This document shows, one piece after another, positions 9,348-50,792 of a stretch of 64,000 nucleotides of DNA. The notes beneath the pieces are model-generated. The model was given only the letters and a program-made list of their open reading frames with translations, was not told the DNA's origin and made no database searches. The position numbers and the translations under genes are program-made. Source of the DNA: an uncultured Collinsella sp. (lineage in GTDB: Bacteria; Actinomycetota; Coriobacteriia; Coriobacteriales; Coriobacteriaceae); contig CAKUGT010000007.1 in NCBI GenBank assembly GCA_934654795.1, forward strand, positions 1 through 64,000, written 5' to 3'. Numbering within the stretch: position 1 is the stretch's first letter; every line of letters begins with the position of its first letter.

Positions 9348-9372
9348 GAGCAACCTACGGGCTACCCGGCGT

Positions 9373-9753: not shown

Positions 9754-9771
9754 GCCCACTCCTTAGTACGG

Positions 9772-9824
9772 AAACCTGCCAAAAGGGGACAGGTTAATTT
9801 TGGCAGGTTTTATCTGGGTAAACG
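9772..9824 (+). repeat. CCTGCCAAAA inverted-repeat element, copy 4
   Basis: AAACCTGCCAAAA and TTTTGGCAGGTTT arms enclose the loop GGGGACAGGTTAA. The TCTGGGTAAACG tail follows. It lies upstream of the merR gene, in the gap after the XRE regulator gene. Confidence 0.85.
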
Positions 9825-9899
9825 ATGACAGCTGAACCCGCCGAAGCATCAATTTAAGTTTAAAGCCTAGAGTCGACTCCAAGTCAAAGCCCATCTTCA

Positions 9900-10814: not shown

Positions 10815-10869
10815 GGTGGTTCCTTTCGTGTGGTGACCGTAATCGAATGAGCCGAGTATGCCGAGAACA

Positions 10870-10940
10870 ACCGGTAACGACCACCATTTCTAGTTAGAAT
10901 CTGCCCCAACCCTACCGCAACTACCGGTAGCAACCATCAT
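10870..10940 (-). promoter_or_regulatory. Paired direct repeats, possible operators of the XRE gene
   Basis: ACCGGTAACGACCACCAT (10870-10887) and ACCGGTAGCAACCATCAT (10923-10940) match at 14 or more of 18 positions, 53 bases apart. They lie 56-126 bases upstream of the XRE regulator start. Position and spacing fit an autoregulatory site, but no binding evidence exists in the sequence itself. Confidence 0.4.
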
Positions 10941-10996
10941 GACCAGCAATTATGTGACAAATGTCAGTGCGCGCAACAGCTAAGAGCCCGGGTCAA

Positions 10997-11065
10997 AAGT
11001 TGCGGTGGAATAGTTCCTAGATTCAGCCATTTGCGGGCTAAGAGGGAACTATTTCACCGCAACTT
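10997..11065. repeat. AAGTTGCGGTG long inverted repeat, copy 1
   Basis: Arms of 21 bp (10997-11017 and 11045-11065) match at 20 positions around a 27-base spacer. The left arm begins AAGTTGCGGTGGAATAGTTC. A second copy with the same arm sequence and the same spacer length lies at 29912-29978. Confidence 0.85.
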
Positions 11066-11094
11066 AATTTCAGACCAGGCACCCGCAGCAAGAA

Positions 11095-11254
11095 GACGAA
11101 TAGCCTCGGCGAGTATGTAAACGAAGGGCCCTCCGACCCCGCCCGACGATTTCGATTGGCGACCTTTGACGGAGTCAAGGGAGGAGCCAAATCGAAATAC
11201 GTCGGGCGGGGCCGGAGGGCCCGATGGGATGGATTTCGGCCGAGGCTATTCGTC
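11095..11254. repeat. Very long imperfect hairpin covering the end of the phosphofructokinase gene
   Basis: Left segments GACGAATAGCCTCGGC (11095-11110) and the GGGCCCTCCG...GATTGGC block (11126-11160) are complementary to 11239-11254 and 11186-11222. The apex CCTTTGACGGAGTCAAGGG can also pair. The outer right arm contains the last codons and stop of pfkA, so the left arm is an inverted copy of the gene end. There is no clear U-run. It may end pfkA transcription or mark an inverted duplication. Confidence 0.7.
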
Positions 11255-12325
11255 GCCGAAGCTGATGCCCAACGCCTTGGCCTCGCGCACCAGGTCGCTC
11301 TGGGGATCGACATACTTGAGCTTGCCGGCGACATCCTCGAGCGGCATGTGGCACATCTTGCCGTCACGCAGAGCAATCATGTAGCCAAACTCGCCGCGTA
11401 GGCAGCCGAGCGCTGCCTCGACGCCGCACTGGGTCGCAAAGATGCGGTCCTGGGCGTCGGGCTGACCGCCGCGCTGCGTGTGGCCGGGGATGGCGACGCG
11501 GGTCTCGCGACCGGTCTTGGCCTCGATCTCCTTGGCGATGTCGTACACGATTGACGGGCTCGTACGCTCGGCGAGCTTCTTCTTGTACTCCTTCTTGGAC
11601 AGCGCCGCGTCCTCCTTGGAGATAGCGCCCTCGGCGACGGCCACGATGGTAAAGCGGCTGCCGGTCTCCATACGATGCTCGATGGTCTTGATGACGTTGT
11701 CCATGTCGTAGGGGATCTCGGGAATCAAGATGACATCCGCGCCGCCCGCGACGCCGGCGTACAGCGGGATCCAGCCAACCTTGTGGCCCATGATCTCGAT
11801 AACGAACACGCGGCCGTGACTCGAGGCGGTGGTGTGAATGTCGTCGATGCACTTGGTGGCGACGTCGATGGCGCTCGTAAAGCCAAACGTCAGCTCGGTG
11901 CCCCAGGTGTCGTTATCGATGGTCTTGGGCAGGGCGATAACGTTGAGGCCCTCTTCGCGCAGGCGGTTGGCGGTCTTGGTGGAGCCGTTGCCGCCCAGCA
12001 TAAACAGGCAGTCGAGCTGCAGCTTGTGATAGGTGTGGACCATCGCCGGCACCTTCTCGACACCATCGGCCTCGGGGGTATCCAGACGCTTGAACGGCGT
12101 GCGGCTCGTGCCCAGGATGGTGCCGCCGCGGGTGAGGATTCCGCTAAAATCGGCGGGCGTCATGACGCGGAACCTGCTGTAGATAAGGCCCTGGTAGCCG
12201 TCCTCAAAACCATAGATCTCGATAGGTTCTTCGCTATTGGTCATAAGCGTTTTGACGATGCCGCGCATGGTGGCATTGAGCGCTTGGCAGTCGCCGCCAC
12301 TGGTAAGAAGACCGATCCTAAGCAT
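11246..12325 (-). CDS. pfkA: 6-phosphofructokinase, ATP-type of the mixed (Gly104/Lys124) group
   Basis: Glycolytic enzyme of 359 residues phosphorylating fructose 6-phosphate. The N-terminal LLTSGGDCQALNA binds the nucleotide, and PKTIDNDTWGTELTFGF holds the catalytic Asp pair. In E. coli numbering, position 104 is Gly (LGGNGS), which normally means ATP use. Position 124 is Lys (PKTIDND), which is typical of pyrophosphate enzymes. This combination is known in actinobacterial ATP-PFKs. Position 103, usually Asp, is Asn here. The chain is about 40 residues longer than E. coli PfkA, as in that group. It stands alone downstream of the amide hydrolase gene. The phosphate donor should be tested rather than assumed. 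Confidence 0.92.
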   Translation of the reverse strand: MLRIGLLTSGGDCQALNATMRGIVKTLMTNSEEPIEIYGFEDGYQGLIYSRFRVMTPADFSGILTRGGTILGTSRTPFKRLDTPEADGVEKVPAMVHTYHKLQLDCLFMLGGNGSTKTANRLREEGLNVIALPKTIDNDTWGTELTFGFTSAIDVATKCIDDIHTTASSHGRVFVIEIMGHKVGWIPLYAGVAGGADVILIPEIPYDMDNVIKTIEHRMETGSRFTIVAVAEGAISKEDAALSKKEYKKKLAERTSPSIVYDIAKEIEAKTGRETRVAIPGHTQRGGQPDAQDRIFATQCGVEAALGCLRGEFGYMIALRDGKMCHMPLEDVAGKLKYVDPQSDLVREAKALGISFGDE

Positions 12326-12465: not shown

Positions 12466-13557
12466 TTACAGTGCGAAGGCGTCGACATCGCCCCAATGGC
12501 GGCGCAGCGTAATGGCTGCGGCGGGCTCGGTGTTGTCGAAGACGACCGACCACTGCGTGTTGCTCGTGATGTCTTCCGGATTGGGTTCTTGCGCCGCAGC
12601 GCGTAGAGCTTTCCAGGCGGTCGCTTCATCTTGGGTGCCAGCGCGGGCGTCGAGGACATCGGCGATGGCGATGGCACGTTCCTTGCCATGACCCAGCTCG
12701 CCGTTCTTTTGGTTGGGGAGCACCTCGTCCTCGTAGCAGGCATAGAAGTTTGTGACTTGCCGCACGGGCGTTGCCTTGAAAGCGCGGTCCGGATCGCGCG
12801 GATCCCACTCCACCACGCGCGCATCACCGGCGGCGTCGTTGATAAAGAAGTGGTAATCGCGCCCGGCCATGGCATGCATGTCGTAGGCAGAAAGTAGGTC
12901 GACGGCCTCCTGCGTGGTGGCCGCGCGGTCGAGCACCAGGCGGATGGCGAGCGAAGTATTGATAACAGGGCGCTGCGTGTCCTGGTCGCAAGGTTTGGAA
13001 TCCAAGGTGAGCACGGCGATGGAAACACCGCGCTCGTTAACGCCGTCGAGCTGGGCGAACGGCCCCATCAGCGCGGCGGCGCGTCCGGCGACAGAGCCCA
13101 GCGGGGCGTTGTTGCCCAGGTTATTGAGAGCCGCAAAGCCGATGGAGGCATAGCCGTCGCACGGGTGGTTGCGCACCAGCAGCGCCGAGGTGTCGTCCTT
13201 AAAGTCGTAATTGCGACCGGTGCGCACGCGGCCTTCGGCATCCACGGCAACAAAGGCGCTGCAGGCAAATTGGGGCGCCTGGACATGCACGGGAAGACCA
13301 GGCATCGCCTGCGCCAGCACGGCATCGATGTAGCCCTGATCGTCGCGCACGCCCGCGGCAATGATGGCATCGAGGTCGTAGTCGTAGGCGATATCGACGG
13401 CGTACAGGTCATAGCCATCTGCATAGTCGGTCAAGCGCTTGAGCGAAGCGGCGGTTTTTATTTGCTTACGATAGGTGACGCCGGCGACAGCGGCGAGGCC
13501 GGCTACGGCTCCGACGGCACCGCAAACGATGGCGGCGGCAACGTTGCGTGGTTTCAT
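12466..13557 (-). CDS. Membrane-anchored linear amide C-N hydrolase (choloylglycine-hydrolase-like, Ntn type)
   Basis: Protein of 363 residues. An N-terminal membrane helix (about 6-28) is followed by a catalytic domain. QFACSAFVAVDAEGRVRTGR supplies the likely nucleophile Cys99, and RNYDF carries the substrate-binding Arg/Asp pattern of the Ntn hydrolase family that includes bile salt hydrolases and acylaminopenicillin acylases. It is not a classic bile salt hydrolase: those start Met-Cys and lack the anchor. Here the nucleophile is internal and would need processing to become N-terminal. The ATG at 13557 is chosen because GAGAGGAG lies eight bases upstream. It follows the ECF transporter genes after a 94-base gap; a functional link is unproven. 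Confidence 0.8.
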   Translation of the reverse strand: MKPRNVAAAIVCGAVGAVAGLAAVAGVTYRKQIKTAASLKRLTDYADGYDLYAVDIAYDYDLDAIIAAGVRDDQGYIDAVLAQAMPGLPVHVQAPQFACSAFVAVDAEGRVRTGRNYDFKDDTSALLVRNHPCDGYASIGFAALNNLGNNAPLGSVAGRAAALMGPFAQLDGVNERGVSIAVLTLDSKPCDQDTQRPVINTSLAIRLVLDRAATTQEAVDLLSAYDMHAMAGRDYHFFINDAAGDARVVEWDPRDPDRAFKATPVRQVTNFYACYEDEVLPNQKNGELGHGKERAIAIADVLDARAGTQDEATAWKALRAAAQEPNPEDITSNTQWSVVFDNTEPAAAITLRRHWGDVDAFAL

Positions 13558-13651
13558 GGCAGCTCCTCTCAAAGCAATGCTATGGGCATTATCGCAAATG
13601 ACATGCAGGGCACTCGATGCAATCCGGTGAACGGCGCGGCTCGTTTGAGCG

Positions 13652-15190
13652 CTAGAGCAGCGCAAGTGCAACGATGCAGATTCCGAGCGTCAGAACGGCG
13701 ACGTCGGCCCGGCCAAAGCGATAGCTGCGGATGCAGGTTCTGCTGGCAGCCGGATGAGTTCCGTATTCGCGGTTGACCATAGCGAGCGCGAGCGTGTCGG
13801 AGCGACGCAGCGCGCTGCTAAACAAGGGCGTTATGACGGGGATAAAGGAACGCGCGCGCTGTAGGGGAGAGGGGCTGTCAAAACGCGCCAAGCGTGCTTC
13901 CTGAGCGGCCTTGATGCGGTCGAATTCCTCAATAAGCACGGGGACAAAACGGAGCGTAAGCTGGATAGCGATGGTGGCATCATCGGTGCGCAGACCAAAG
14001 CGGGCTAGGGGCCTCATGAGCGTCGCGGCCCCATCGGCAAGCGCGGTGGGGGAAGTGGTCGCCATGAGGGTCGAGGTCCCCAGCATAATCAGGGCAAAAC
14101 GCAGGACGCAGAGGACGCCAAAGCATAGGCCTCCCGAGGTGACCTGCACAGGTCCTGCCTGCAACAGCAAAGTACCCGAAGCAGTAAAGAGCGTGTTGAA
14201 GACCAGGACAAACCCCATGAGCCAGCGAAAGGGCTTAAGAGCGCGGAGCGCCTGGCGCACGGAGCTGCCGCTTGCGACGAGTGAGGCAAGGGCGACGACA
14301 ACGACGACGGCAAGCGCAAGGGGTCGCTGGGCAATAAAGCCGGCAATCATAAAGAGCAGGCAGAACATGAGTTTGACTGCGGGGTGTAGTGCGTGGGCGA
14401 GCGTGGACCCATGACGAAAGACGCCAAATGAGACCACCTTGGGCGTCGCCGGGACATGTCCGGAATCCGTCGGGCGTGCAGTCGACGAGACAACGGGCGC
14501 TGCCTCGGCACCCTCCGAGTTAAGCGGCAACAGCGAGCCATCCTGCAGCAGATAGGCTTCGTCGCAAATACCGAGTGCCCGGGGATCATGTGTGACGATG
14601 ACGATGCCTCGGCCGTTGCGAGCGAGTTGCCCTATATGCTCAAGCAACAACAGACATGCGTGAGGATCGAGCCCCGCGGTTGGTTCGTCGAGCAGCAGAT
14701 ACGGTGCCTCGAGTGCAAGCATGTCGGCGATGGCGATACGGCGCTGCTCGCCCCCGGAATGGGCAAAGGGGCTCGTGTTACAGATGATGGCGGGGTCGAG
14801 CCCTACGGTCAGAAGCGAGGCGTTGACGCGCTGCTCAACTTCAGTCTCGTCCAATCCAAGGTTGCGAGGCCCAAATGCAACTTCATCAAAGACGTTGGCG
14901 GCAAAAAACTGCTGCTCGGGACGTTGTTGTACCAGTGTCACGGCCATGCGGTGCGCACGAAGTTCATCTGCCGTGGGACACGCGCCAAGTGCGACCCCGT
15001 CCGCCTCGACAGACCCTGCCTGCTCGTCAAGTGCTCCGGCAAGGACGCGCAGCAGCGTCGACTTGCCAGAGCCGGAGGCGCCGCCAATGCCAATCACACG
15101 GCCGGGCATAACCTCAAGCGATACGTCATGTAAGGCGCAGGCGTCCGCCCTGGGATAGCGAACGGTTATGTTTGAGCAGATTAGCGACAC
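13652..15190 (-). CDS. Fused ECF transporter ATPase-EcfT protein
   Basis: One polypeptide of 512 residues joins an EcfA ATPase (about 1-225) to the EcfT membrane coupling subunit (about 265-512). ATPase motifs are GASGSGKSTLL (Walker A), SGGEQRRIAIADML (signature) and LLLDEPTAGLD (Walker B). The EcfT part has five or so helices and the coupling motif RRSDTLALAMVNREYG near residue 470. ECF transporters move vitamins and cofactors with a separate S component. Here that component and the second ATPase are fused in the adjacent gene, whose stop overlaps this start by ten bases. Position in the ApbE/FMN-binding cluster suggests flavin as substrate (inference). Confidence 0.9.
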   Translation of the reverse strand: MSLICSNITVRYPRADACALHDVSLEVMPGRVIGIGGASGSGKSTLLRVLAGALDEQAGSVEADGVALGACPTADELRAHRMAVTLVQQRPEQQFFAANVFDEVAFGPRNLGLDETEVEQRVNASLLTVGLDPAIICNTSPFAHSGGEQRRIAIADMLALEAPYLLLDEPTAGLDPHACLLLLEHIGQLARNGRGIVIVTHDPRALGICDEAYLLQDGSLLPLNSEGAEAAPVVSSTARPTDSGHVPATPKVVSFGVFRHGSTLAHALHPAVKLMFCLLFMIAGFIAQRPLALAVVVVVALASLVASGSSVRQALRALKPFRWLMGFVLVFNTLFTASGTLLLQAGPVQVTSGGLCFGVLCVLRFALIMLGTSTLMATTSPTALADGAATLMRPLARFGLRTDDATIAIQLTLRFVPVLIEEFDRIKAAQEARLARFDSPSPLQRARSFIPVITPLFSSALRRSDTLALAMVNREYGTHPAASRTCIRSYRFGRADVAVLTLGICIVALALL

Positions 15191-16338
15191 AGTTCCTCCA
15201 AGCCGCAGCGGATGAGCAGGTCGCGCTGGCCGGCAAGATTCTGCGCGGCGCCCAGGTATGCGATGGCACCCGCCTCAAAGACGGCGACTCGATCGGCGCG
15301 GGCGACCTCGTCGAGCAGCTGCGTGATCTGAACCACGGCGACACCGCGACGGCAAAGATGGTCGATGCGATCGTTGACGGTCATGCGGGTTGCCTCGTCG
15401 AGCATGGCGGTCGTCTCGTCAAAAATCATGAGCGAGGGGGAGAGCACGACCAATCCCGCCGCGGCAACGCGCTGCTTTTGACCGCCCGAGAGCGTGGAGA
15501 CATCGCGGGCCTCGAGCTCTGCGATGCCAAGATCAGCGAGTGCCTGCGAGACCACCGTGCGCATCTCGTCGCGGGGAACGCCGCGGTTTTCGAGCCCAAA
15601 GGCAACATCGTCTCGTACGAGCGGGGCGACAATCTGGTTGTCGGGATCCTGAAAAGCAAGGCCCACGGTGCCTTGAACGCGCACGGCGTGCTCGCTCGCG
15701 CCCTCAAGCAGGCCTGCGAGCTCAAGGGCGCAGGCGCTCTTGCCGCTGCCGTTGGCACCGACAAAGGCGATACGTTCCCCCGGCACAATGCTGGCGGCAA
15801 ATGCAGAACAGTCGACGGCGGGACGCGCATTATCGGCCTGCTCAATACCGGCGAGCGCACCTTCTGCCACCGCGCCCGTAATGCCGCCAGTGACGCAGGC
15901 GGCAACGCCCAGAACGCCCAGGTTAATAAAAACTGCCGGCGTCTGCAGCGCCATGGCGGCAACTCCTAACTGGCCCACATTGTGTAACACAGCGGCAAGC
16001 ATGCTTACCGGCACCAAGCCAACACCCGGTACGGCGGCAAGGGCGACCATGCCCACAAAGGCAAGAGCCGTGCCACCCAGGCTATAGGCGAGCATCATGG
16101 GCGAACCAAACAAAAAGCCCGATGCCAAAACCTTGACGAGCGCAACGGCGCCGGCGCTTTTAACGTCGAGCGTATAGAGTGCGACGACCACGGCCACGTT
16201 GGCGAGACCCAGCTTAATGCCGGGCACCGCGACGGGCAGCGGAATCATCGTCTCTAGATAGGACAGCACCAGCGCGCAGGCGCACAGCAGCGAAACGCGA
16301 GCCAGGCGACGGGTATGCTCGATGTCGACCGCGGTCAT
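15181..16338 (-). CDS. Fused Gx-type S component and ECF ATPase
   Basis: Protein of 385 residues. The first 170 are a membrane domain of the Gx transporter/HepS-like family (ETMIPLPVAVPGIKLGLANV is its hallmark), with five or six helices. From about 180 comes an EcfA ATPase with VGANGSGKSA (Walker A, with Ala where Ser/Thr is usual), LSGGQKQRVAAAG (signature) and MIFDETTAMLD (Walker B, Thr for Pro). It starts three bases after the NusG-II gene stop, so translation is probably coupled. With the next gene it makes a complete ECF transporter from two chains. Gx proteins accompany ApbE and NusG-II proteins in flavin-based electron-transfer loci such as that of Listeria. Confidence 0.87.
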   Translation of the reverse strand: MTAVDIEHTRRLARVSLLCACALVLSYLETMIPLPVAVPGIKLGLANVAVVVALYTLDVKSAGAVALVKVLASGFLFGSPMMLAYSLGGTALAFVGMVALAAVPGVGLVPVSMLAAVLHNVGQLGVAAMALQTPAVFINLGVLGVAACVTGGITGAVAEGALAGIEQADNARPAVDCSAFAASIVPGERIAFVGANGSGKSACALELAGLLEGASEHAVRVQGTVGLAFQDPDNQIVAPLVRDDVAFGLENRGVPRDEMRTVVSQALADLGIAELEARDVSTLSGGQKQRVAAAGLVVLSPSLMIFDETTAMLDEATRMTVNDRIDHLCRRGVAVVQITQLLDEVARADRVAVFEAGAIAYLGAAQNLAGQRDLLIRCGLEELCR

Positions 16339-16341
16339 AGG

Positions 16342-16755
16342 CTAGCGCCCAACCACGTCATAGGTGCTCTCGGCACCCTCATCAACGATGTCGACGGTCA
16401 GCTTGTGCGGAAGGCAGACGATTTGCTGCCCGGCGGCATCGATCCAACCCTGATGCACGCAGTCCTGGTTGGGACAGTCTGCCTCCTCGACGTGCACCCG
16501 TCCGTCCTTAATCTCGATAACGTTGGTCCCCAGGTCGGTCGTGACGGTCTTGGTCGCGTCTTGGCCTAAGGGGAGTTCATAGACGTTTTGCACCCCATCG
16601 CGGATGACGACCGTTGCCGTGTCGGCGTCCGTGTTCACTCCTATCAGGCGTGTGGTGACCAGGCCGGCACACGCGAGGGCCGCTATCACCACAACCAGGA
16701 TTACGTTGAGCTTTTTGCTGCCGCGCCTATCGCGCGTGTCGTTGCGCTTGGACAT
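16342..16755 (-). CDS. NusG domain II-containing envelope protein
   Basis: Small protein of 137 residues. A basic N-terminus and one membrane helix (about 16-38) put the rest outside. The C-terminal domain has the conserved pattern DCPNQDCVHQGWI, with a cysteine pair, and IVCLPHKLTVDI, with a third cysteine. These mark the stand-alone NusG_II family (EetA-like), not the transcription factor NusG. Such proteins sit beside Gx transporters and ApbE in extracellular electron-transfer loci. The role is unknown, and the cysteines could bind metal or be redox active. AGGAG precedes the ATG. It lies eight bases after the ApbE stop. Confidence 0.88.
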   Translation of the reverse strand: MSKRNDTRDRRGSKKLNVILVVVIAALACAGLVTTRLIGVNTDADTATVVIRDGVQNVYELPLGQDATKTVTTDLGTNVIEIKDGRVHVEEADCPNQDCVHQGWIDAAGQQIVCLPHKLTVDIVDEGAESTYDVVGR

Positions 16756-16763
16756 CTCGGCTC

Positions 16764-17837
16764 CTAGTCCTGCAAAATCTTGAACGCCGTGCCTTTGCTC
16801 TTGGTGGCGTGATCGTCCATATCGACCAGAACGCCGCCCTCAAAGCGCTCGTCGCTTTCGATGAGCTCCATGGCGCGGTCGTGACCGAGCAAAAACAGGA
16901 TGGTGGAATACGCATCGCCCAGCACGGACTTCTTGGTCATAATCGAGGCGCTCTTGAGGTCGGTGGCGGCGGGGTAGCCCGTTTTGGGGTCGAGGATGTG
17001 GTAGTAGAACGTGCCGTCCTGCTCAAAGCCGCGCTCATAGAGGCCGCTCGTCACAAGGGAGCGGTTGCGCGTCTTGATGGTGGCGAGCACGTCGTCCTGC
17101 GCGCCGTTGGGGTCTTGCACGCCCACGTTCCAGGCGTCGCCGTCAAAGCTCTTGCCCATCACGTAGACGTTGCCGCCCAGGCTGATGGAAGCATCTCTGA
17201 CGCCGCTCTTCTTAAAGAGTGCCACGAGGTCGTCGGTGATGTAGCCCTTGGCGATACCACCCAAGTCGAGCTTGGCCTCGGGGTCGGAGAGGGTGACGGT
17301 GGTACCGTCGACCGTGATGGTGCGATAGTCGACATGGGGCAGTGCCGCCTGGATGTCCTCATCTGCGGGCTTGACCTCGTTGTCAAAATCCCAGAGGCTC
17401 GAGACGGCGCCGATGGTGATGTCAAAGAGCCCGTCGGACTCCTCGGCGTAGCGGATGGCTGCCTCGATGACCTCGGCGGTCTCGTGTGCGACTTCCACGG
17501 GCTTGCCGCCTGCATTGTTGATGTTCCAGATATCCGAGCCCTCCACGGTGCGCGAGAACTTGTTCTCAAAGTAGGTGCAGCGGTCGGCGACCTCGTCCAT
17601 GACCTTTTTACTGCATAGGGCGCTGATATTCACGACAGTGTCGAAGACAAAGAGCGTCGTGCTCTGCACCTTGGGCGAGCTGTCGGAGCCCGCGGAGCCC
17701 GCTTTGGACGCGTTTACAGAGCCCGAGTCGCCCTGCGTGCCCGAGCAGCCGGTAAGTGCACCGGCGCAAGAGACGAGGGCCCCGCCTGCGAGGGCGATAA
17801 ACGTGCGGCGGTCGATGGTGTGGGGGGTCTGGATCAT
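16764..17837 (-). CDS. apbE: FAD:protein FMN transferase (ApbE), exported lipoprotein
   Basis: Enzyme of 357 residues that moves FMN from FAD to a threonine of FMN-binding domains. The signal region DRRTFIALAGGALVSCAGALTGCSG combines a twin-arginine-like pair with a lipobox (LTGC), so the mature protein is membrane-tethered outside. Family motifs follow in order: FDTVVNI, DLGGIAKGYITD, SLGGNVYVMG, LDPKTGYPA and the Mg-binding stretch SVLGDAYSTILFLLG. Its likely substrates are the three FMN-binding proteins encoded upstream in the same direction, which together carry at least seven candidate threonines. It lies between the NapH-like and NusG-II genes. The start has only a weak GAAAG ribosome site. 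Confidence 0.95.
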   Translation of the reverse strand: MIQTPHTIDRRTFIALAGGALVSCAGALTGCSGTQGDSGSVNASKAGSAGSDSSPKVQSTTLFVFDTVVNISALCSKKVMDEVADRCTYFENKFSRTVEGSDIWNINNAGGKPVEVAHETAEVIEAAIRYAEESDGLFDITIGAVSSLWDFDNEVKPADEDIQAALPHVDYRTITVDGTTVTLSDPEAKLDLGGIAKGYITDDLVALFKKSGVRDASISLGGNVYVMGKSFDGDAWNVGVQDPNGAQDDVLATIKTRNRSLVTSGLYERGFEQDGTFYYHILDPKTGYPAATDLKSASIMTKKSVLGDAYSTILFLLGHDRAMELIESDERFEGGVLVDMDDHATKSKGTAFKILQD

Positions 17838-17926
17838 GGTGAGCTTTCTGGTCGGTGGCGTTACGGATGAGCCTGCGCCTGCACGACTCGGTGTTGACGG
17901 AGTGCCGGGCTGCGGGTGCGCGTGCC

Positions 17927-18964
17927 CTACATGAGCAGGTAACAGAGCGCGGCGAGGATGGCAGCCTTGACGAGCGTGAGCGCAACCTCGGTCCCGCGAA
18001 TGGCGGGCCCTGCGGGCGGGCGCTTGCGGGCGTTGCCCTGCGCGAGCTCGCTGGCATCGTCGGTTGCCTGATCGCGCTTAAAGCCGTCGAGCCGGGCGAG
18101 CGTCACGTTGGCCATGGGGCAGCCATCGGCGCAGCGCCCGCAGGCGATGCACTCGCCCGATCGCAGGTCGGCGCGCTCGGGGTGGATGCGCACCGGGCAG
18201 CTGTCCTGGCAGCGGTTGCAACCGCGCGCACAGCTTTCGCGGCGGCGGTTGAAAAGCGAGACCGGCAACACTGGCAGCAGCGAGAATATGGCGCCGAAGG
18301 GGCAGAGGAACTGGCAGAAGAAACGCTCGACAAAGGCCATCCCAACCATGACCGCGCCAAGCGCGGCAAAGGCCGTGGGCGCGATGCCCTCGAGCGAGCG
18401 CGCAGTGATGCCGGCGAAGGCGACCCAGGGGCTCGCGCCCGAGACCTGGGGCCAGATACCCATCACGCAGAGGGCGCAGATGCCCACGAGGACGGCGTAC
18501 TTGACGAGCTGGAGCGCGTGCTGCACGCCCGCGGGGAGCCGGTGCGCGCCCTTGCCCTCAAGGCGGAGTGTCCGGCGCAGCGGGGTTGCAAGCGCGTAGA
18601 CGATATCGCCGAGCGTACCGAAGGCGCAGGCAAAGCCGCAGAAGAAACGGCCGAACACGCAGGTGAAGGCCAAGAGGGCCAAAAGCAGGGATAAAAAGCC
18701 GGTGAGCTCGATGGGTGCATGGCTCCCGAGCTGCGTGAAGATGTACTTGACGCCGTTGAAGGCGGCGTTCCAGGCGGCCGGGAAGCAGATGAGAAAGCCG
18801 AACTGTACGCACCAGCGCACACCGCGATGGAGGTACTGTCGGCGCAGGCGCTCCTGCATCTTGTTCTTGGGGTGCGCGATGACGTTTGCGCCGTTGCGCA
18901 GGCTCTCAAGGGTTCCCGCGGGGCGCTTTGCGCCGCGGGTCTTGGTGGATGCAGTCCTGGCCAT
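17927..18964 (-). CDS. NapH/NosR-like 4Fe-4S membrane protein
   Basis: Polytopic protein of 345 residues, with five or so helices between about 48 and 240. Two membrane-face motifs, FFCGFACAFG and FFCQFLCPFG, are the CxxxC(P) pairs of NapH/NosR/YccM proteins. Two ferredoxin motifs follow, CARGCNRCQDSCPV and CIACGRCADGCPM, each able to bind a 4Fe-4S cluster on the cytoplasmic side. A last helix ends the chain. In related systems these proteins pass electrons between the quinone pool or cytosol and flavoproteins outside the membrane. The start ATG shares one base with the stop of the preceding FMN-binding gene (TAATG), so the two are translationally coupled. Confidence 0.92.
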   Translation of the reverse strand: MARTASTKTRGAKRPAGTLESLRNGANVIAHPKNKMQERLRRQYLHRGVRWCVQFGFLICFPAAWNAAFNGVKYIFTQLGSHAPIELTGFLSLLLALLAFTCVFGRFFCGFACAFGTLGDIVYALATPLRRTLRLEGKGAHRLPAGVQHALQLVKYAVLVGICALCVMGIWPQVSGASPWVAFAGITARSLEGIAPTAFAALGAVMVGMAFVERFFCQFLCPFGAIFSLLPVLPVSLFNRRRESCARGCNRCQDSCPVRIHPERADLRSGECIACGRCADGCPMANVTLARLDGFKRDQATDDASELAQGNARKRPPAGPAIRGTEVALTLVKAAILAALCYLLM

Positions 18965-19437
18965 TACTGCGTACCTCCGGCGTTGCTCTGCTCAAGCGCC
19001 GCGTTGACGGCGTTTAGGATGCCGGCACTCGAGAACGTGGCACCCGAGACGGTGTCGACGTTGGTTCCCTGGGCATCGCAGATGGTCTGCGTGAGGCCCT
19101 CGGCCTGCGCAAAGTAGGCGGGGGTCTCGCCGGTGTGGTCCGTGACCTCGACGCTTTCGATGTATCCGTTCTCGATGGTCACGCGGCAGGTGACAGTGCC
19201 GCCGTAGCCCTGGGCGCTGCCCTCGAAGGTGCCGTCGGTGTCGTAGGCGCCGCGCGTCTGCGAGCGCTCGGCCTGGACAGCCTCCGCCTGGGTGCGGGCG
19301 TCGGCCTCTGCCGCCTGGGCGGCCCAGCTGCTGTAGCCCGCCACGATGGCGACGACAGCCGCGGCGTTGACGGCTTTGAGATAGAAATTGCGGTTGCGCC
19401 AGAGGTGGCGCCCAAGGAGGGCAAACGGGTTACGCAT
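18964..19437 (-). CDS. Single-domain membrane-anchored FMN-binding protein
   Basis: Protein of 157 residues. One membrane helix (about 18-40) is followed by a short Gln/Ala-rich linker and an FMN_bind domain (about 70-150) with DGTFEGSAQGYGG and the flavinylation motif VDTVSGATFSS, whose Thr should carry covalent FMN. It resembles the FMN-binding subunits of NQR/RNF complexes and the Listeria PplA domains. The ATG overlaps the stop of the upstream three-domain gene by eight bases and has GAGGAG about eight bases before it. It is a likely direct partner of the Fe-S protein encoded next. Confidence 0.93.
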   Translation of the reverse strand: MRNPFALLGRHLWRNRNFYLKAVNAAAVVAIVAGYSSWAAQAAEADARTQAEAVQAERSQTRGAYDTDGTFEGSAQGYGGTVTCRVTIENGYIESVEVTDHTGETPAYFAQAEGLTQTICDAQGTNVDTVSGATFSSAGILNAVNAALEQSNAGGTQ

Positions 19438-20941
19438 GGGCGCCAGCCTCCTCGGTGGCCCCGTTTGCGGCGGTCGGGTTGGCCGTAGGCTCATCGGGGG
19501 CGTTTGTCTTGTCAGAAGCGTCTGCCTTGTCGCCTTTGCTGTCGTTCGCGTCCTTATAAGTCGCGGCCGAGCGCGCGAGGGCGTCGGTGTAGGCGTTGGC
19601 GATGGCGCGGCTGGAGTAGGTGGCGCGCGCCACCACGTCGATCTTGCCAGCCTCGGTGCCCGCGAGCAGCTGCTCGGGGATGCCGGTGTAGACGGTACCG
19701 CGGAAGGTGCGGCCGTCGATGGCTTTATCGAGGTAGGGCTCGTTATCCTCGTCAAAGGGATCAAGCGCGTCGGAGAGGCTCTCGTCAGGCTTGCCGCCTA
19801 CACCCTCGATATCGTGGATACCGGTAACCTTGCCGTCCTTAACGGTGACGGTGAGCTTGACGTAGTAGGGGCTGAAGGCTTCGTCGTCCTCCTCGTTTTT
19901 GCAGAGGGCGTAGCCTGTAAAGTCGCCGTCGGCGTAGTGGACCTCGTCTGGCGTGTCGGGCGAGGGGTCCGGGTTGGGCGCGGGGTCCGGGTTGGGCGCG
20001 GGGTCGGGGCCGGGCGCGGGCTCGGGGTCCTTTGTGCCGGCTGCGGCCTGCTTAAGGCAGCCCTGGATGGCGCCCAGGATGCCCTCGCTCGAATACGTGG
20101 CTCCTGTCACAGTGTCGACATTGACGCTTTGCTTTTGCATGACGAGCCCGGGGAGTGCGTTCCAGGCGCGGCTCCAATACTCGGGCGTGTCGCCCGTGTT
20201 CACGAGTTCTATGTTGGCGATCTTGCCGTTCGCGATGGTCACGCGCACGCTGACGGGCGTGTCCTCGCTGTATCCCCAGGCGGAGTCGGTGTAGACGCCG
20301 TCTGCGTAGCCGCCGGCGGGCGTGAAGGGGTCGATGGTGTGGTGGGGCTTATTGGAGGAGCCGCCGGCCGCAGGGGCGGGGGCAACAGCCTCGGCAAGCC
20401 CGCCCGATGCCTTGACCAGTGCGTTTTTGATGGCCATGAGCAGGCCTTTTGATGAATACGTGGCACCCGAGATAGTGTCGACCGACGTCGACTGAGCGCT
20501 AATCACCGACTGGGTGATCGCCCGGGCACGCCCAAAGTAGGCTGGGTCGTCTGCAGACGACACTATGTCGATTGCCACGATCTTGCCGCCCGCGATGGTC
20601 ACGCGCACGGTGATACTGCCCCTAAAGCCGGTACCTGTGCCTTCATAGGTGCCGTCCTTGAGGTTTGCGGCGTCCATACCATAGGCCGAGGGGTCGAGCG
20701 ATTCGGTTGCCGGCGTTGCCGTCTCCTTCTGGACGTTGGAGGTGTCGACGGTCTTGAGGTCGGCGCCTGCGGCCTCTTGCGCGGGCGCGGCGGCGACCGT
20801 CTTGGCCACGAGCGGGGTGTACTGGGACACCACGAGGGCCACGGTTGCGCCCACGGCGATCGAGGGCACGATGAAGCCTGCCGTGGCGAGGCCGTGGCCG
20901 AGCGCCTTGGCTTTTGAGTGCTTGGGTTGGTAGTTGTCCAT
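19430..20941 (-). CDS. Three-domain membrane-anchored FMN-binding protein
   Basis: Protein of 503 residues. An N-terminal helix (about 19-43) anchors it. Three FMN_bind domains follow, with candidate acceptor motifs VDTISGATYSS, VDTVTGATYSS and IDVVARATYSS. The third has lost the Gly but keeps the Thr. A Pro/Asp-rich hinge (repeats of PDPAPN) separates domains two and three and probably spans the wall. The C-terminus is Asp/Lys/Asn/Ala-rich and has no sorting signal. It could act as a flavin wire between the membrane Fe-S protein and the wall-anchored protein encoded upstream. A terminator-like hairpin separates it from that gene. Confidence 0.93.
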   Translation of the reverse strand: MDNYQPKHSKAKALGHGLATAGFIVPSIAVGATVALVVSQYTPLVAKTVAAAPAQEAAGADLKTVDTSNVQKETATPATESLDPSAYGMDAANLKDGTYEGTGTGFRGSITVRVTIAGGKIVAIDIVSSADDPAYFGRARAITQSVISAQSTSVDTISGATYSSKGLLMAIKNALVKASGGLAEAVAPAPAAGGSSNKPHHTIDPFTPAGGYADGVYTDSAWGYSEDTPVSVRVTIANGKIANIELVNTGDTPEYWSRAWNALPGLVMQKQSVNVDTVTGATYSSEGILGAIQGCLKQAAAGTKDPEPAPGPDPAPNPDPAPNPDPSPDTPDEVHYADGDFTGYALCKNEEDDEAFSPYYVKLTVTVKDGKVTGIHDIEGVGGKPDESLSDALDPFDEDNEPYLDKAIDGRTFRGTVYTGIPEQLLAGTEAGKIDVVARATYSSRAIANAYTDALARSAATYKDANDSKGDKADASDKTNAPDEPTANPTAANGATEEAGAHA

Positions 20942-20971
20942 TTGTGGGTGGTCTCCCGTGGTCGAGTATGA

Positions 20972-21005
20972 GAAAAGGCCCGCAGCCCTGGTTGGGGCTG
21001 CGGGC
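20972..21005 (-). terminator. Intrinsic terminator after the giant FMN-binding surface protein gene
   Basis: GCCCGCAGCCC (20978-20988) and GGGCTGCGGGC (20995-21005) form an 11-bp stem with a six-base loop. On the minus strand this is followed by CCTTTTC. It would reduce read-through into the electron-transfer genes downstream, so the surface protein may be made in excess. Confidence 0.75.
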
Positions 21006-21041
21006 GCTTGCGTTGCGAGCGCGTGGCGCGCGTTTTAGGCG

Positions 21042-24000
21042 CTAGTGCTGCATGCGGCGGCGGATGGCGACGCCGGCGGCCGCGATGGCGGCACCGATAC
21101 CGGCGAAGATGCCGACCGTGGCGATCTGGGTATCACCGGTGCCGGGGAGGCCGCTTGCGTCCTTCTTGGATGCATTGGCCTTCTTGGTATCGGTGGTCGT
21201 CGTCGTGGTCGTCGTGGTGCTCGAGGTATTGCCCTTGGAGCTCTGGCTAGGCTTGGCGAGCGCCTCGCGGGCGGTCTTGAGCGTAGTCGTTGCGGCCTCG
21301 ACGTCGGCTGCGGAGGCGTCGTCCTTCGAAAGGACGGTCTGGGCCGCGGCCAACGCGGATTGGTATGCCTTCCAGGAGTCGGCGGTGTAGTCGGACTCGT
21401 TCAGCGCATCGGCACGGCCAATCTCGACCTTAAGGTCGGTCTTCTGGTCGGTCGTTGCGGCCTTGACGAGCGCGGCCTGAGCGTTCTGGAGCGTCGAGAG
21501 GGCGTTGGCAACCTCGTCGTCGGAAGCCGCGGGGCTTTCGTTAACGCCCTGGGCAGCGCTCAGCGCGTCCTGGAACGCAGCCCAAGATGCGGCGGTGTAG
21601 GTGCCCTGGTCGTTGCTCAACTTGGCAGCGGCCTCAATTGCGGCGTTGAGCGCCGTCTTGTCGGCCGACTTGGTGTAGGTGAAGCGCAGGTTGGTGGTGT
21701 AGCCGGTGGCCTCGACCTCAATCTGGTAGTCGCCGTTGGCATTGAACACCGGCGATTTATCCTGATTGGCGGCCGCCAGGTTAAGCGAGCCGTCGGCGTT
21801 GAAGATCTTTACCGCACCGCGGCCCTGCGCGCTGTACACGGTACCGTTGACGGTGACCTTGGAGATGTTCGCGAGGTAGTTGGCAAGATCATCGTCCGTG
21901 TCATCGTTGGCGGCGATGAGCTTAAGGTTTGCGGCGTCAAAGCTGGCAACGAGCTTGGAGGTGGTTGCCGTAAAGCTCGTGCTGATATCGGCAAACTTGC
22001 CCTTCTTGTCGATGGCGGTCAGCGTGTGGCTGCCGGGCTTAAGAGCCGAGGCGTCAAACGTGACGGACACGGAGCTGCGCGCGTTGCTGGCGAGCGGCTC
22101 GACATCCTGACCGTCAATCTGGTAGGCGGCGTCAAAGCCTTCAGGCAAGGTGACATCGGCATTGACGGTGGCGTTGGCACCGTCAAGCGAGGCATCTTTG
22201 GCCTTGATGGCGGCGTCGGCATCCTTGACGGGGACATACTGATCCATGGCCACGGTGTAGGTGCCCGTGGAGGTGTAGAACGTCACGCTCTTGATGGTTT
22301 TGCCCATCATGGACTTGTAGTACTGCGAGCTCAGCGGGCTGCCGTGAGACTCGTTGACCAGACCGCAGCTCCAAGCAATCTCCTTGCCCTTCCAGATGTT
22401 CTCGACGGCGCGCATGCCATAGCCCTCGATGGTGCCGTCCGCATCGGCGGCGTTGACCACGGCACCGTATACGGTCGCCTGGTTGCCGTCGGCGTCGACC
22501 ATCTGCTCGCGCAGGTTCTTAAAGTCAATCTCGTAGTCGCCGTACTTGCTGGAGGTCTTAAAGTCGGCTGTGACGTTTGCAAGTTCGGTGGTTTCCTTGC
22601 CCTCGACAGCGCCAAAGCTCAGGTTGCCCTCGGAATCAGAGGTGAGCTCCTTGTAATTGGTCGGAACCTCGCCGGCGGGCAGCACGTAGTAAGAGTAGCT
22701 CGCAGACTCGAACAGGGCGTTCTTGCCCGTGTAGGTTGTCGTGGACTCCTTGCCCTTGATCGAGGTGGTGATCGTAACGGAGCTGTCGTCGGTCGCGCGG
22801 GTGAACTTGGACCAATCGATGTCGCCTTCGCCCACCTTGACGGCAAACGTGACGCCCGAGATATCCGTACCGTTGGAATTGACGTGGTAGGAGCCGCTCG
22901 CCAAGCTGGAGCGCGTCTTCTGCCGCGTAGCCGAGGTCACAATGTCGGTGCCGGCGTTGTTGCTCTCGGCGGCATAGAAATCGGCGTAGGGGATGTTCAT
23001 GAGCACGTAGTCACCGGCCTGGGGATACAGGCTCACGAGTGCGTCGAGCGCGCCCTGCAGGTGGGTGATCTGCTCGGCGGCCTCGGCTTCGCCCAGGTTT
23101 TTCTTGGCGAGCAGGTCCTTGGTCTCGGCAGTTTCGGTCTCGATGGACGAGGCGGTCCAGGAGTCCTTGGTGTACTTGGACTTATCGAGGGACGTCGCCT
23201 TGTCGTAGAGCTCCTGCAGCTGGGCCTTGGTGGCGTCGGTCACCGGCTCCTTGGCGCCCACGATGTTGTCGTCAGTCGCCTGGAAGGTGTAGGTGTAATC
23301 GTTGTAACCCAAAGCGTGGACGGTAAGCTTCCAGTAGCCGGTGCCGTTGGTGTCCTCGGGCAGCTGGCAGCGCTCGGATTTAGTGAGGCCCAGCTGAATG
23401 CCCATGGACTTGTGCATCCAGTTGTCGGCCGCGAACTTGGTGCCGTAGGTGGCAAGGGCGTTGGTGTAGGTCGCATCGTCGCCGTAATAGGTCCAGGTGA
23501 CGCTTTGCATATTGGCGCCCAGGTCGCCATAGTTGCCGTTGAGATCTACGCGCAGGAACTCGCCGTAGGAGCCGCTCGCGTCCTTAACCGTGGGTTTAAT
23601 GTCCGTGGCGGTCTTGAGCTCCTGACCCTTGATACCCGAGTCGGTGCCGGTGGTGGCGGCCGAGAAGCTGAAGGTTCCGTTATTGTTGGTCACGGTCTTA
23701 ATGCCGTTGGTGTTGGCATCGACGTCCGCAACCAGGCCGGAGTAAGCCTGGAGGTTATTTTCGGTGTAGCCGCCGGCGAGCGTCTCGCCATTGGCGACAA
23801 AGCTGTGGCTCGCCTTAAAAGCCTCGAGGTCGCTGGTCTTGATTTTGACGGGAACGTACTTGAGTCCCGTGACCTCGTAGTCTTTGAGCGTGTAGCTTGC
23901 ACCGTCGCAGGTCATGGCGCCGCGGTTCCACGTTACGGTCTTGCCGTCGGTCGTGGTGAACGACTTGCCGTCGGCGGCCCAGGTGGCCAGGTCAAACGTC

Positions 24001-24872
24001 GCGCCCTCGTTGGTGTAGATGGTAGCCATGCACTGGTAGCTGCCGCGGTGCAGGCCGTGGTTGGCGGTTGCACGGGTCACCACGTCAAAAGCGCCCTTGT
24101 CGGCCTCATTGCGGGAATCGAGCTCGCTCGACGAAGCGGAGGACCCTGCCGCCTGCACTTTTTCACCAGCCCAATACTCGGCCCACGTCAGGCCGGCGTA
24201 GCCATAGGTGTACTCGTCGGTCGCAGGGGTCGACGGATTCTGCTCGTCATAGGCAGTCTGCAGGGCATTATCGACGGCAGCCTTGATGGCGTTGGACGAG
24301 ATCGTGGCGGTCGAAACAGCATCGATTGAGGTAGTGTTGCCGGCAGTCTCGATTTGCTCGACGATGCCCTTATAGGACGTGCCTTTTTTGCTAAAACCGT
24401 TAACGGCCTTGTCCATGCGGTCCCAGTCATCGTCGCCCAAGCTACTGTAGTCGGCGACTTCGACCTTGGCAATTTTGCCAGACTTGACGGTTACGCTGAC
24501 GTTGACGTCATACTTTCCATCAGCTGCGTTCCATTCGTCGCCAGCTTTATTGAGCGGGTCCTTCGAGTCGGCCGTGGCCGTGCCCTCATACGTACCATCT
24601 GCGATTTTGGTCAAATCGTAGCTGGTCGAGGAGGATGCGGCGTCGTCAGAGACGGCACTCAGGCTATACTCGGAGCTGAGGGACTTCGTTTCCTCACTGG
24701 TGGCGGAGATCGGCGCGTTGTTGGTAGCTTCGGAGCCGGTCTCCGTTGTTGCTGCTGCGGCAAAAGCGCTGGTAGGCATCATCGAGACGGTCATCGCAGC
24801 GATGAGCGCACCTCGACAGGCATTGCTGCCCACAGTGTTGAGCTTGCGCAGCACAGCGTTATCGTTGTGCAT
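21042..24872 (-). CDS. Giant LPXTG-anchored FMN-binding surface protein
   Basis: Cell-wall protein of 1276 residues. A signal peptide (about 1-39, ending TSAFAAA) leads to an FMN_bind domain (about 90-207) with motif IDAVSTATISS (Thr190). Two related domains follow, starting YAGLTWAEYWAGE and MNIPYADFYAAE (about 224 and 634), each with a further DxVTxAT motif. They resemble the penicillin-binding Tp47 domain family. One FIVAR-type helical domain lies near 545-628, and two near 1074-1207. The C-terminus is LPGTGD, a hydrophobic helix and RRRMQH, a sortase signal. The ATG at 24872 is preferred because AAGAGGT precedes it and the signal peptide follows directly. It is probably the outermost electron carrier or substrate-contacting part of the flavin locus. 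Confidence 0.88.
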   Translation of the reverse strand: MHNDNAVLRKLNTVGSNACRGALIAAMTVSMMPTSAFAAAATTETGSEATNNAPISATSEETKSLSSEYSLSAVSDDAASSSTSYDLTKIADGTYEGTATADSKDPLNKAGDEWNAADGKYDVNVSVTVKSGKIAKVEVADYSSLGDDDWDRMDKAVNGFSKKGTSYKGIVEQIETAGNTTSIDAVSTATISSNAIKAAVDNALQTAYDEQNPSTPATDEYTYGYAGLTWAEYWAGEKVQAAGSSASSSELDSRNEADKGAFDVVTRATANHGLHRGSYQCMATIYTNEGATFDLATWAADGKSFTTTDGKTVTWNRGAMTCDGASYTLKDYEVTGLKYVPVKIKTSDLEAFKASHSFVANGETLAGGYTENNLQAYSGLVADVDANTNGIKTVTNNNGTFSFSAATTGTDSGIKGQELKTATDIKPTVKDASGSYGEFLRVDLNGNYGDLGANMQSVTWTYYGDDATYTNALATYGTKFAADNWMHKSMGIQLGLTKSERCQLPEDTNGTGYWKLTVHALGYNDYTYTFQATDDNIVGAKEPVTDATKAQLQELYDKATSLDKSKYTKDSWTASSIETETAETKDLLAKKNLGEAEAAEQITHLQGALDALVSLYPQAGDYVLMNIPYADFYAAESNNAGTDIVTSATRQKTRSSLASGSYHVNSNGTDISGVTFAVKVGEGDIDWSKFTRATDDSSVTITTSIKGKESTTTYTGKNALFESASYSYYVLPAGEVPTNYKELTSDSEGNLSFGAVEGKETTELANVTADFKTSSKYGDYEIDFKNLREQMVDADGNQATVYGAVVNAADADGTIEGYGMRAVENIWKGKEIAWSCGLVNESHGSPLSSQYYKSMMGKTIKSVTFYTSTGTYTVAMDQYVPVKDADAAIKAKDASLDGANATVNADVTLPEGFDAAYQIDGQDVEPLASNARSSVSVTFDASALKPGSHTLTAIDKKGKFADISTSFTATTSKLVASFDAANLKLIAANDDTDDDLANYLANISKVTVNGTVYSAQGRGAVKIFNADGSLNLAAANQDKSPVFNANGDYQIEVEATGYTTNLRFTYTKSADKTALNAAIEAAAKLSNDQGTYTAASWAAFQDALSAAQGVNESPAASDDEVANALSTLQNAQAALVKAATTDQKTDLKVEIGRADALNESDYTADSWKAYQSALAAAQTVLSKDDASAADVEAATTTLKTAREALAKPSQSSKGNTSSTTTTTTTTTDTKKANASKKDASGLPGTGDTQIATVGIFAGIGAAIAAAGVAIRRRMQH

Positions 24873-24972
24873 AGAACCTCTTTTCCATCGGTTGATCGTG
24901 GGGTGCCGTTCTCCTTTCTGCTGGCACCCAAATGGACATGCATCATGCGTGCTCCACATGATATGTAAGCCA

Positions 24973-25008
24973 CCTATAACTTTCTTGAATGGGCTAAAAA
25001 GTTATAGG
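24973..25008 (-). promoter_or_regulatory. Perfect inverted repeat upstream of the surface flavoprotein gene
   Basis: CCTATAACTTT (24973-24983) and AAAGTTATAGG (24998-25008) are perfect 11-bp arms around 14 bases, about 100 bases before the start of the giant protein and in the gap shared with the divergent aminopeptidase gene. It could be an operator or an mRNA hairpin. No U-run or GC-rich stem favours a terminator. Confidence 0.5.
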
Positions 25009-25205
25009 CAGCAAACAAAAAAACCAGAAATTACCACGGGCTAACTTATCAATTTGATTGTCGTTTAGATGTAACGGGAGGCGTCGTGTGGTCCGCTTGT
25101 ACACAGACGTGCCGCAAACGCGACTGTCGGGTATTCGATTTGTCGGATGGACCGGTAATTGGGGGTATGCTGGAGAGGACCAGCAACCCAGCGAAAGGGG
25201 AGAGC

Positions 25206-26805: not shown

Positions 26806-27186
26806 ATGACCACAACCGCCGCTCAGATCAACGTACGTCTCGATGCCGATCTTAAAAGAAGTGGGGACGCCGCTCTCTCCAAGGCCGGTATGACGCCGAG
26901 CCAAGCGGTGCGAGCGCTCTGGCAGCTTGCAGCGTCGCTGGCCGATCGCCCCGGTGCGCTCGAGGATATCCTGCTGCCCAGTCGTGCCCGGGCGGAACAG
27001 CGCGAGCGCGAAAAGGCCGCCAAACGTAAGCTCGAGCTCATGGATCAGGGGTCGAAGCTGTTCGCTGCCGCTTGCCGTGAGTCGGGAATCGATATGGTCA
27101 AGGCTCAGCCATCGGACGACGAAGAGCTCAAACGGAATGCCTATGCGGATCGCTATGGCGAGGAGATGAGCTGGCTCTATGAGTGA
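26806..27186 (+). CDS. RelB/DinJ-type antitoxin
   Basis: Protein of 126 residues. The N-terminal ribbon-helix-helix region (QINVRLDADLKRSGDAALSKAGMTPSQAVRALWQLAA, about 7-43) is the RelB/DinJ DNA-binding fold. A charged helical stretch (about 60-80) and an acidic C-terminus follow, which would wrap the toxin. The C-terminal half is longer than in DinJ. It has a strong AAGGAGGGG ribosome site. The stop overlaps the PIN toxin start by eight bases, so the pair is translationally coupled. The combination of a RelB-type antitoxin with a PIN toxin is not the classical pairing. Confidence 0.88.
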   Translation: MTTTAAQINVRLDADLKRSGDAALSKAGMTPSQAVRALWQLAASLADRPGALEDILLPSRARAEQREREKAAKRKLELMDQGSKLFAAACRESGIDMVKAQPSDDEELKRNAYADRYGEEMSWLYE

Positions 27187-27670
27187 GACTCCAAAGCGCA
27201 TCTTGGTTGACACCAACGTGTGGCTCGATTACTTCATTCCCTCACGACGTGGTCGTTCGGTGGCGATTGAGTTTTTACGCGATGCATGCACGGCGCAGGT
27301 GGATTTGCTGTATGCGGCGACATCGTCCAAAGACCTGTTCTATTTGATTTCAAGCGAACATAAGGCATGGTATCGGCGAGAGCACGGTTCGCTTTCCCAG
27401 AATGCCGCTGCGGCAGCGACATCGCTTGCATGGGATTGTCTTAGCGTGTTGTCGCAGCTTGCCACGCCAGTGCCCTGTGACCTGAGCGACATATGGATGG
27501 CGAGCAGGCAGCGTGAGCTCCATAGCGATTACGAAGACGATTTAATCATTGCGGCAGCGATACGCGCTCAAGCAGATCTACTGGTCACCAACGATGTCAA
27601 GCTCTGTTCGCATGCGCCCGTCGCAGCAATGAGTGTAGAAGACGCAAAAAATTACTTAGCAACGCTCTAG
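27179..27670 (+). CDS. PIN-domain ribonuclease toxin
   Basis: Protein of 163 residues, probably a Mg-dependent endoribonuclease. The acidic active-site set of PIN domains is present: LVDTNVWLDYF (first Asp, with the following Asn), an acidic residue in the middle helix region, SDYEDDLIIAAAIRAQ, and LVTNDVKL near the C-terminus. The length is slightly above VapC. It begins inside the antitoxin gene, and no independent promoter is seen. Cleavage target (often initiator tRNA or rRNA for PIN toxins) cannot be told. Confidence 0.88.
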   Translation: MSETPKRILVDTNVWLDYFIPSRRGRSVAIEFLRDACTAQVDLLYAATSSKDLFYLISSEHKAWYRREHGSLSQNAAAAATSLAWDCLSVLSQLATPVPCDLSDIWMASRQRELHSDYEDDLIIAAAIRAQADLLVTNDVKLCSHAPVAAMSVEDAKNYLATL

Positions 27671-50780: not shown

Positions 50781-50792
50781 GAGGAGAAACAG

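Follow-up and report, generated by a model that had tools for sequence, protein, structure and literature searches.

Gene content and organization of the island

The 64,000-nucleotide stretch of DNA from an uncultured Collinsella sp. analysed here (contig CAKUGT010000007.1; hereafter the window) contains an island of eight consecutive minus-strand genes, which encode a large surface protein and a set of proteins related to flavin-based extracytosolic electron transfer (Table 1). In the order of transcription these are the surface protein, a protein with three FMN_bind domains (3xFMN), a protein with one such domain (1xFMN), a NapH-like membrane Fe-S protein, the flavin mononucleotide (FMN) transferase ApbE, a NusG_II protein which we take to be EetA, and the polypeptides EetB-EcfA and EcfA'-EcfT, in which the four parts of an energy-coupling factor (ECF) transporter are combined. 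An initial annotation, made from the sequence alone, had listed these eight genes with their domains, and both domain searches and a recheck of the reading frames confirmed them. Its broader proposal is supported by homology and gene context: the locus is of the flavinylation type, with ApbE and proteins like EetA and EetB, and would serve extracytosolic electron transfer.

The 1xFMN gene starts at the ATG at position 19437, and the 266-aa open reading frame (ORF) listed for it is an over-extension from a TTG codon. NapH models match the NapH-like protein with values down to 4e-17, albeit under the cut-offs of these models. The N-terminus of ApbE can be read as RR and a lipobox-like sequence. 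The tight coupling of the genes suggested earlier holds in part: neighbouring genes do overlap at 15181-15190, 18964 and 19430-19437, but the large gene is set apart from the 3xFMN gene by a 100-nt gap containing a terminator-like hairpin. Strong hairpins of differing sequence fold at the equivalent place in four homologous loci (L001, L002, L003 and L028); given this recurrent position after it, the large gene and the other seven probably differ in their level of expression. An inverted repeat upstream of the large gene (24974-25007; CTATAACTTT-N14-AAAGTTATAG) was considered as an operator and rejected, since it is not conserved in L001. A plasmid search gave no match.

Table 1. Features of the island, in window coordinates and from left to right (E-values are those of the domain searches).
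Feature	Position	Strand	Evidence or remark
Whole island	13571..25161	.	absent as a block from close relatives, ~104 bp there instead
Second ECF ATPase (EcfA') fused to EcfT (CbiQ), gene	13652..15190	-	ABC_tran 1.4e-24, CbiQ 1.7e-35
EetB-type ECF S component fused to ECF ATPase (EcfA), gene	15181..16338	-	PF07456 2.4e-32, ABC_tran 4.3e-17
EetA-like NusG_II protein, gene	16342..16755	-	PF07009 5.4e-30
ApbE FMN transferase, gene	16764..17837	-	PF02424 8.9e-82
NapH-like membrane Fe-S protein, gene	17927..18964	-	PF12801 3.5e-14; two four-Cys clusters
1xFMN_bind protein (157 aa), gene	18964..19437	-	PF04205 1.8e-16
1xFMN protein motif	19036-19056	-	DTVSGAT
3xFMN_bind protein, gene	19430..20941	-	N-terminal membrane segment (hydropathy); PF04205 5.8e-37, 3 stretches
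3xFMN protein motifs	within 19430..20941	-	DTISGAT, DTVTGAT, DVVARAT
Terminator-like hairpin between large gene and 3xFMN gene	20978..21005	-	
Surface protein (1,276 aa), gene	21042..24872	-	signal region, FMN_bind, Tp47 module, second Tp47-like module, Shr-like HID, FIVAR x2, LPGTG tail
LPGTG sortase-type signal	21135..21149	-	hydrophobic stretch and RRR after it (sequence)
FIVAR domain (better of two stretches)	21258..21443	-	PF07554 9.2e-15
Shr-like HID domain	21690..21896	-	PF07550 2.7e-8
Diverged second Tp47-like (type-2) module	22233..23021	-	
Type-2 module motif	22926-22946	-	DIVTSAT
Tp47 domain C	23253..23717	-	PF14888 5.2e-75
Tp47 domain A	23739..24218	-	PF14889 3e-63
Flavinylation-like motif in Tp47 domain A	24066-24086	-	DVVTRAT
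FMN_bind domain of large protein	24258..24509	-	PF04205 3.7e-9
FMN_bind motif of large protein	24303-24323	-	DAVSTAT

Tp47 modules in the large surface protein

Tp47 is a long-used syphilis antigen whose structure has been solved and whose enzymatic role is disputed. The large protein of the island is built around a module of this family, with the two domains (A and C) and the fold (PDB ID: 1o75) that define Tp47. This core was missed when the protein was described as a giant LPXTG flavoprotein; the protein does have a length of 1,276 aa, one FMN_bind domain and an LPGTG-hydrophobic-RRR tail. Tp47 of Treponema pallidum is a stand-alone protein of 434 aa, whereas here the module is duplicated, with a diverged type-2 copy beside the type-1 module, and embedded in an LPGTG protein together with FMN_bind. 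Among the homologues, FMN_bind lies N-terminal to Tp47 in 11 of 31 proteins, as judged by Pfam, and after Tp47 in P0151. Sortase anchoring, named in the initial annotation, does not define these proteins: a sortase-like tail is present in nine of the 29 homologues that carry the Tp47 module.

Absence of the island from close relatives

The nearest locus is that of Collinsella aerofaciens (L001), with 90–94% DNA identity in the aligned blocks and 99% and 98% identity to the window for the NapH-like protein and the M18 aminopeptidase, respectively. The latter is the right-hand neighbour of the island. Among 59 genomes sampled from the family of genome G001, 20, including G001, encode an M18 aminopeptidase at least 97% identical to it. 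In all 19 others, which were fetched, the M18 gene immediately adjoins the gene for a C45/AAT/choloylglycine-hydrolase-like Ntn hydrolase, and the island genes were not found in any of these 19 (at least 50% identity over at least half of the query). The break points are at 13570|25162 of the window, and the empty site measures 104 bp in the six relatives that were aligned (6/6). Since the 19 relatives are without island genes and have the flanking genes adjacent to each other, the eight genes come or go, by gain or loss, as a single block. The G+C content is 62.5% in the island and 58.7 and 59.9% in its 5-kb flanks. The C45 hydrolase gene (12466-13671, minus strand) abuts the island and is regarded as lying outside it because it is present in all 19 relatives without the island.

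Co-occurrence of Tp47 with flavin machinery

The large protein was used as query in a single scan of 84,980 species genomes. Of the 73 loci recovered, 29 possess a Tp47 module and 44 do not. NapH and FMN genes are found at 25 of the 29 Tp47 loci and at one of the 44 others (L026; Fisher test, P = 2.4e-14), and any FMN_bind domain at 27 and three, respectively (the three being L026, L039 and L073; P = 1.9e-14); since the loci are related, as are the genomes compared below, all such P values are too small and overstate the association. In a separate sample of 299 Lachnospiraceae genomes, the Pfam model PF14888 was matched in 11 and a NapH like that of L004 (E ≤ 1e-25) in 30, all 11 falling within the 30 (P = 1.5e-12). 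When the Tp47 neighbourhoods of this sample were inspected (ten fetched, plus L004), NapH was near Tp47 in 10/11 and FMN_bind in 9/11; five of the 11 loci were already among the 29, and L092 ends at a contig edge.

The gene set around Tp47 recurs at many loci, with a gene order that varies by lineage, and as a block it is absent from all 19 close relatives, which indicates that the grouping goes beyond chance. ApbE is out of reach at eight of the 29 Tp47 loci; a genome search of seven of these and three others found it in 10/10 (controls 7/14). At the Faecalibacterium loci L011, L013, L014 and L021, Tp47 stands beside FMN and NapH genes, and such loci may provide the machinery with which gut fermenters transfer electrons out of the cell. 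Tp47 is rare in the classes and families surveyed with the Pfam model: counts, which include the centre genome, were 2/296 in the class Coriobacteriia, 3/341 in the class of G002 (two over the cut-off), 1/247 in the class of G004, 2/148 in the family of G003 (one over the cut-off) and 1/65 in the family of G001.

It might be argued that the island is an ordinary NapH-like multi-flavinylated cluster with a variable wall protein, and that the Tp47 link, being a product of common descent within a few gut lineages, has no functional meaning. The class of cluster has been published (PMC8238504). Most of the Tp47 loci belong to gut Coriobacteriia, Lachnospiraceae, Ruminococcaceae and Erysipelotrichia, and they are not independent. 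However, the gene order differs between lineages, Tp47 and FMN_bind are fused in both orders, and at L008 the membrane partner is another one, the Tp47 gene being located behind ApbE and a hydrophobic FMN_bind protein, without NapH. These three observations argue for a repeated functional pairing, and we consider descent alone an unlikely explanation of the link between Tp47 and the flavin genes.

In the L008 arrangement (7230-11374), the partner is a hydrophobic protein of 470 aa whose sole Pfam match is a C-terminal FMN_bind domain; it is possibly another membrane electron donor for Tp47. L026 (3590-11983; Oliverpabstia) is a complete flavin locus with a large protein that lacks the type-1 Tp47 module, which suggests that the outer protein is exchangeable. 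In genome G175, from the class of G001, a 654-aa frame (L102, 349-2310, minus strand) represents a natural fusion of a NapH-like Fe-S protein (Fer4_5, 1.7e-12) with ApbE (3.5e-67) and adjoins an FMN_bind ORF.

A flavinylation-like motif in Tp47 domain A

ApbE places FMN on the last residue of D-x-x-[S/T]-G-A-[S/T], and replacement of the Gly by Ala halves the reaction (PMC12052999). The 1xFMN and 3xFMN proteins have four FMN_bind domains between them, and three of these carry the canonical motif. Tp47 domain A displays a related heptad, D-x-V-[S/T]-R-A-T, which departs from the canonical motif in having Arg for Gly. It is present in 30/30 aligned domain A modules, in 10/10 further Tp47 ORFs (four of them from the same loci), in 120/120 close homologues and in 35 of 36 matches to the T. 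pallidum query, including T. pallidum itself; the remaining one, P0122, has R-P-T. Across 40 sequences the D, V, R and T of the motif are invariant (40/40) and the A nearly so (39/40), with H272, G273 and R276 equally fixed. The relaxed pattern D..[ST].AT, which was picked after the motif had been seen, is expected 0.01 times per 327 aa, as calculated from 435,054 residues of other ORFs.

Domain A does not have a recognisable FMN_bind fold. Comparison with FMN_bind by hhalign gave probabilities of 7.5% for domain A alone, 3.5% for domain A doubled and 1.7% for the whole module doubled, and FMN_bind chains were not found among the listed structure matches of Tp47. The possibility that domain A is a circularly permuted FMN_bind was rejected, as the alignment covers only nine motif columns. 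In both structure models the motif lies in a low-confidence loop (predicted local distance difference test score, pLDDT, <50 in at least one of them), which fits an exposed modification site but may reflect only shallow alignments.

Flavinylation of the Tp47 modules themselves is a tentative proposal, its odds held down by the Arg-for-Gly substitution and the lack of recognisable FMN_bind homology. We give even odds to a different explanation, namely that Tp47 is not redox-active but a ligand-binding or structural wall module that presents FMN_bind or catches the acceptor, the heptad being a binding or catalytic site. The Arg in place of the consensus Gly (PMC12052999), the Pro of P0122 and the nine-column profile match all agree with such a role, and the type-1 block, by extending past the heptad to H272, G273 and R276, resembles an active or binding site. 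Moreover, Tp47 has been called an enzymatically characterised penicillin-binding protein and penicillinase, and peptidoglycan synthesis and beta-lactamase activity are named among its potential functions (PMC11057208). What this explanation accommodates less easily is that the type-2 modules have lost the H-G-R part yet retain D-x-V-[S/T]-S-A-T in 11/11 rows, and that Arg also occurs at the Gly position of real FMN_bind domains in the same loci, where flavinylation is likewise putative. That position is occupied in 129 such domains by G (107), R (10), E (4), T (4), S (3) and H (1); the R-type domain is the last one of a multi-FMN protein (the last two in L024) in nine loci.

Extending the flavinylation proposal to the whole family is equally tentative. 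Domain A may be an unrecognised ApbE domain, in which case every Tp47, including the abundant T. pallidum lipoprotein, would bear FMN covalently at the Thr of D-x-V-[S/T]-R-A-T and act as a flavin redox module outside the cytosol; its place in gut Firmicutes and Coriobacteriia would be the outer end of a NapH conduit independent of the cell's own quinones. A Tp47 fold that is fused to FMN-binding domains and tracks the flavin module in gut bacteria offers a concrete redox hypothesis for the family. In being an apbE-neighbour domain with a conserved short Ser/Thr motif, Tp47 resembles DUF2271 and DUF3570, which are ApbE substrates other than FMN_bind; those, however, keep [S/T]GA[S/T] and were flavinylated experimentally (PMC8238504), whereas Tp47, a putative substrate, has Arg for Gly. 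Searches of the open-licence literature revealed no link between Tp47 and flavinylation, and a word search of the main texts of PMC8238504, PMC11334425 and PMC12052999 gave none either. Coriobacteria and flavinylation together gave no match in the open-licence literature.

Relationship to known flavinylation systems

The island resembles the NapH-like flavinylation systems of Meheust et al. (2021), in which a PF12801 protein, ApbE and a separate FMN-binding gene are clustered; of 2465 NapH-like clusters described, 539 have such a separate gene (PMC8238504). The operational definition given there fits the island, where the PF12801 gene is located between the ApbE and FMN_bind genes. The use of a NapH-like protein for Ndh2, which the initial annotation regarded as distinguishing, was thus already described in 2021. 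What sets the island apart from those systems is its own four-part ECF exporter, its Tp47 surface protein and close carriers without a UbiA-family prenyltransferase (see below). Similarly, a multi-FMN_bind protein beside a large FIVAR-bearing wall protein is a feature shared with the multi-flavinylated clusters of the same study, but the surface protein is here identified as Tp47-based, a word absent from that main text. Occurrence of eetB beside NapH-like systems and EetB-EcfA fusions were reported in 2023 (PMC9973259). NapH-like clusters, multi-flavinylated proteins with FIVAR wall partners and EetB-EcfA fusions are therefore already published, and the window locus itself may appear in the supplement of PMC8238504.

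With the Listeria system for extracellular electron transfer and its EetB-FmnA ECF exporter, the island shares EetB, EetA, ECF subunits, ApbE (FmnB) and an extracytosolic FMN protein (PMC9973259), and the EetB/ECF exporter genes (PF07456 with EcfA, EcfA' with EcfT) are found beside apbE. It differs in having a NapH-like protein instead of Ndh2 and the demethylmenaquinone genes, and in the fusion of EetB to EcfA; none of the eight genes encodes the type-II NADH dehydrogenase with a membrane helix that characterises the Listeria type (PMC8238504).

Proposed route of electrons

We interpret the locus as a flavin electron-transfer island, that is, a complete and horizontally variable NapH-type flavin conduit (probability of about 0.75), for which we infer covalent FMN, the direction and path of the electrons, their donor and the role of Tp47. 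In Listeria, EetB binds FAD (flavin adenine dinucleotide) and is required, with the ECF subunits, for flavinylation (PMC9973259), which suggests that the ECF pair (EetB-EcfA and EcfA'-EcfT) should feed ApbE. The pair would export FAD, and ApbE, outside the membrane, would use it to place FMN on the 1xFMN, 3xFMN and large proteins. Electrons would enter through the Fe-S clusters of the NapH-like protein, their most likely source being a cytosolic carrier (for example ferredoxin) and not quinol. The NapH-like protein would pass them to the 1xFMN and 3xFMN proteins, both tethered to the membrane, and these would relay them to the wall-anchored protein; its Tp47 modules would be the outermost redox or acceptor-contacting part.

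The known routes to menaquinone and ubiquinone require a UbiA-family prenyltransferase. No such enzyme was found in 4/4 carrier genomes, which are those of relatives (Collinsella, Faecalibacterium, Fusicatenibacter and Thomasclavelia) and not the window's own, while 14/14 controls were positive. This absence points to a cytosolic donor such as ferredoxin and suggests that NapH-like proteins can run without endogenous quinone; these proteins are thought to move electrons across the membrane, sometimes from quinol (PMC8238504). T. pallidum is also described as lacking quinone biosynthesis (PMC7512555).

Several points weigh against the proposed conduit. Apart from the Arg of the Tp47 motif and the fold of domain A, and from the restriction of the UbiA result to relatives, scavenged quinones may still serve carriers without UbiA, and deletion of EetA in Listeria is reported to give no extracellular electron transfer phenotype (PMC9973259). 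No FMN or NapH genes lie within ~9 kb on either side of Tp47 at L096, a genome with NapH and ApbE on another contig, nor in ~10 kb upstream at L007 and L009, where the contigs end 0.8-1.7 kb downstream. On the 9.4-kb contig of L025, FMN_bind is found only inside the Tp47 protein and NapH is missing. Finally, NapH occurs without Tp47 in 19 of the 30 NapH-carrying Lachnospiraceae genomes, and Tp47 is therefore an optional, accessory outer part.

The Shr-like HID domain, present in 12 of the 31 proteins, raises the question of whether the function of the island is to acquire iron or haem. In that case the surface flavoprotein would reduce ferric iron or haem caught by this domain instead of feeding a respiratory sink. 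Iron transporters are known from some flavinylation clusters (PMC8238504), but the domain search revealed no iron or haem transporter in the island and the other 19 proteins have no HID domain; we regard this function as improbable and favour the electron conduit.

Other features of the window

To the right of the island, overlapping RelB-like and PIN-like ORFs were read from the sequence, with no family search, at 26806-27670 (plus strand); the PIN ORF was not found in seven of the 18 fetched relatives whose far-side gene was in view. Two very long ORFs, of 1,625 aa (50718-55595, minus strand) and 1,169 aa (58101-61610, plus strand), have no Pfam match at 1e-5, and the former overlaps a 1,596-aa ORF on the opposite strand.

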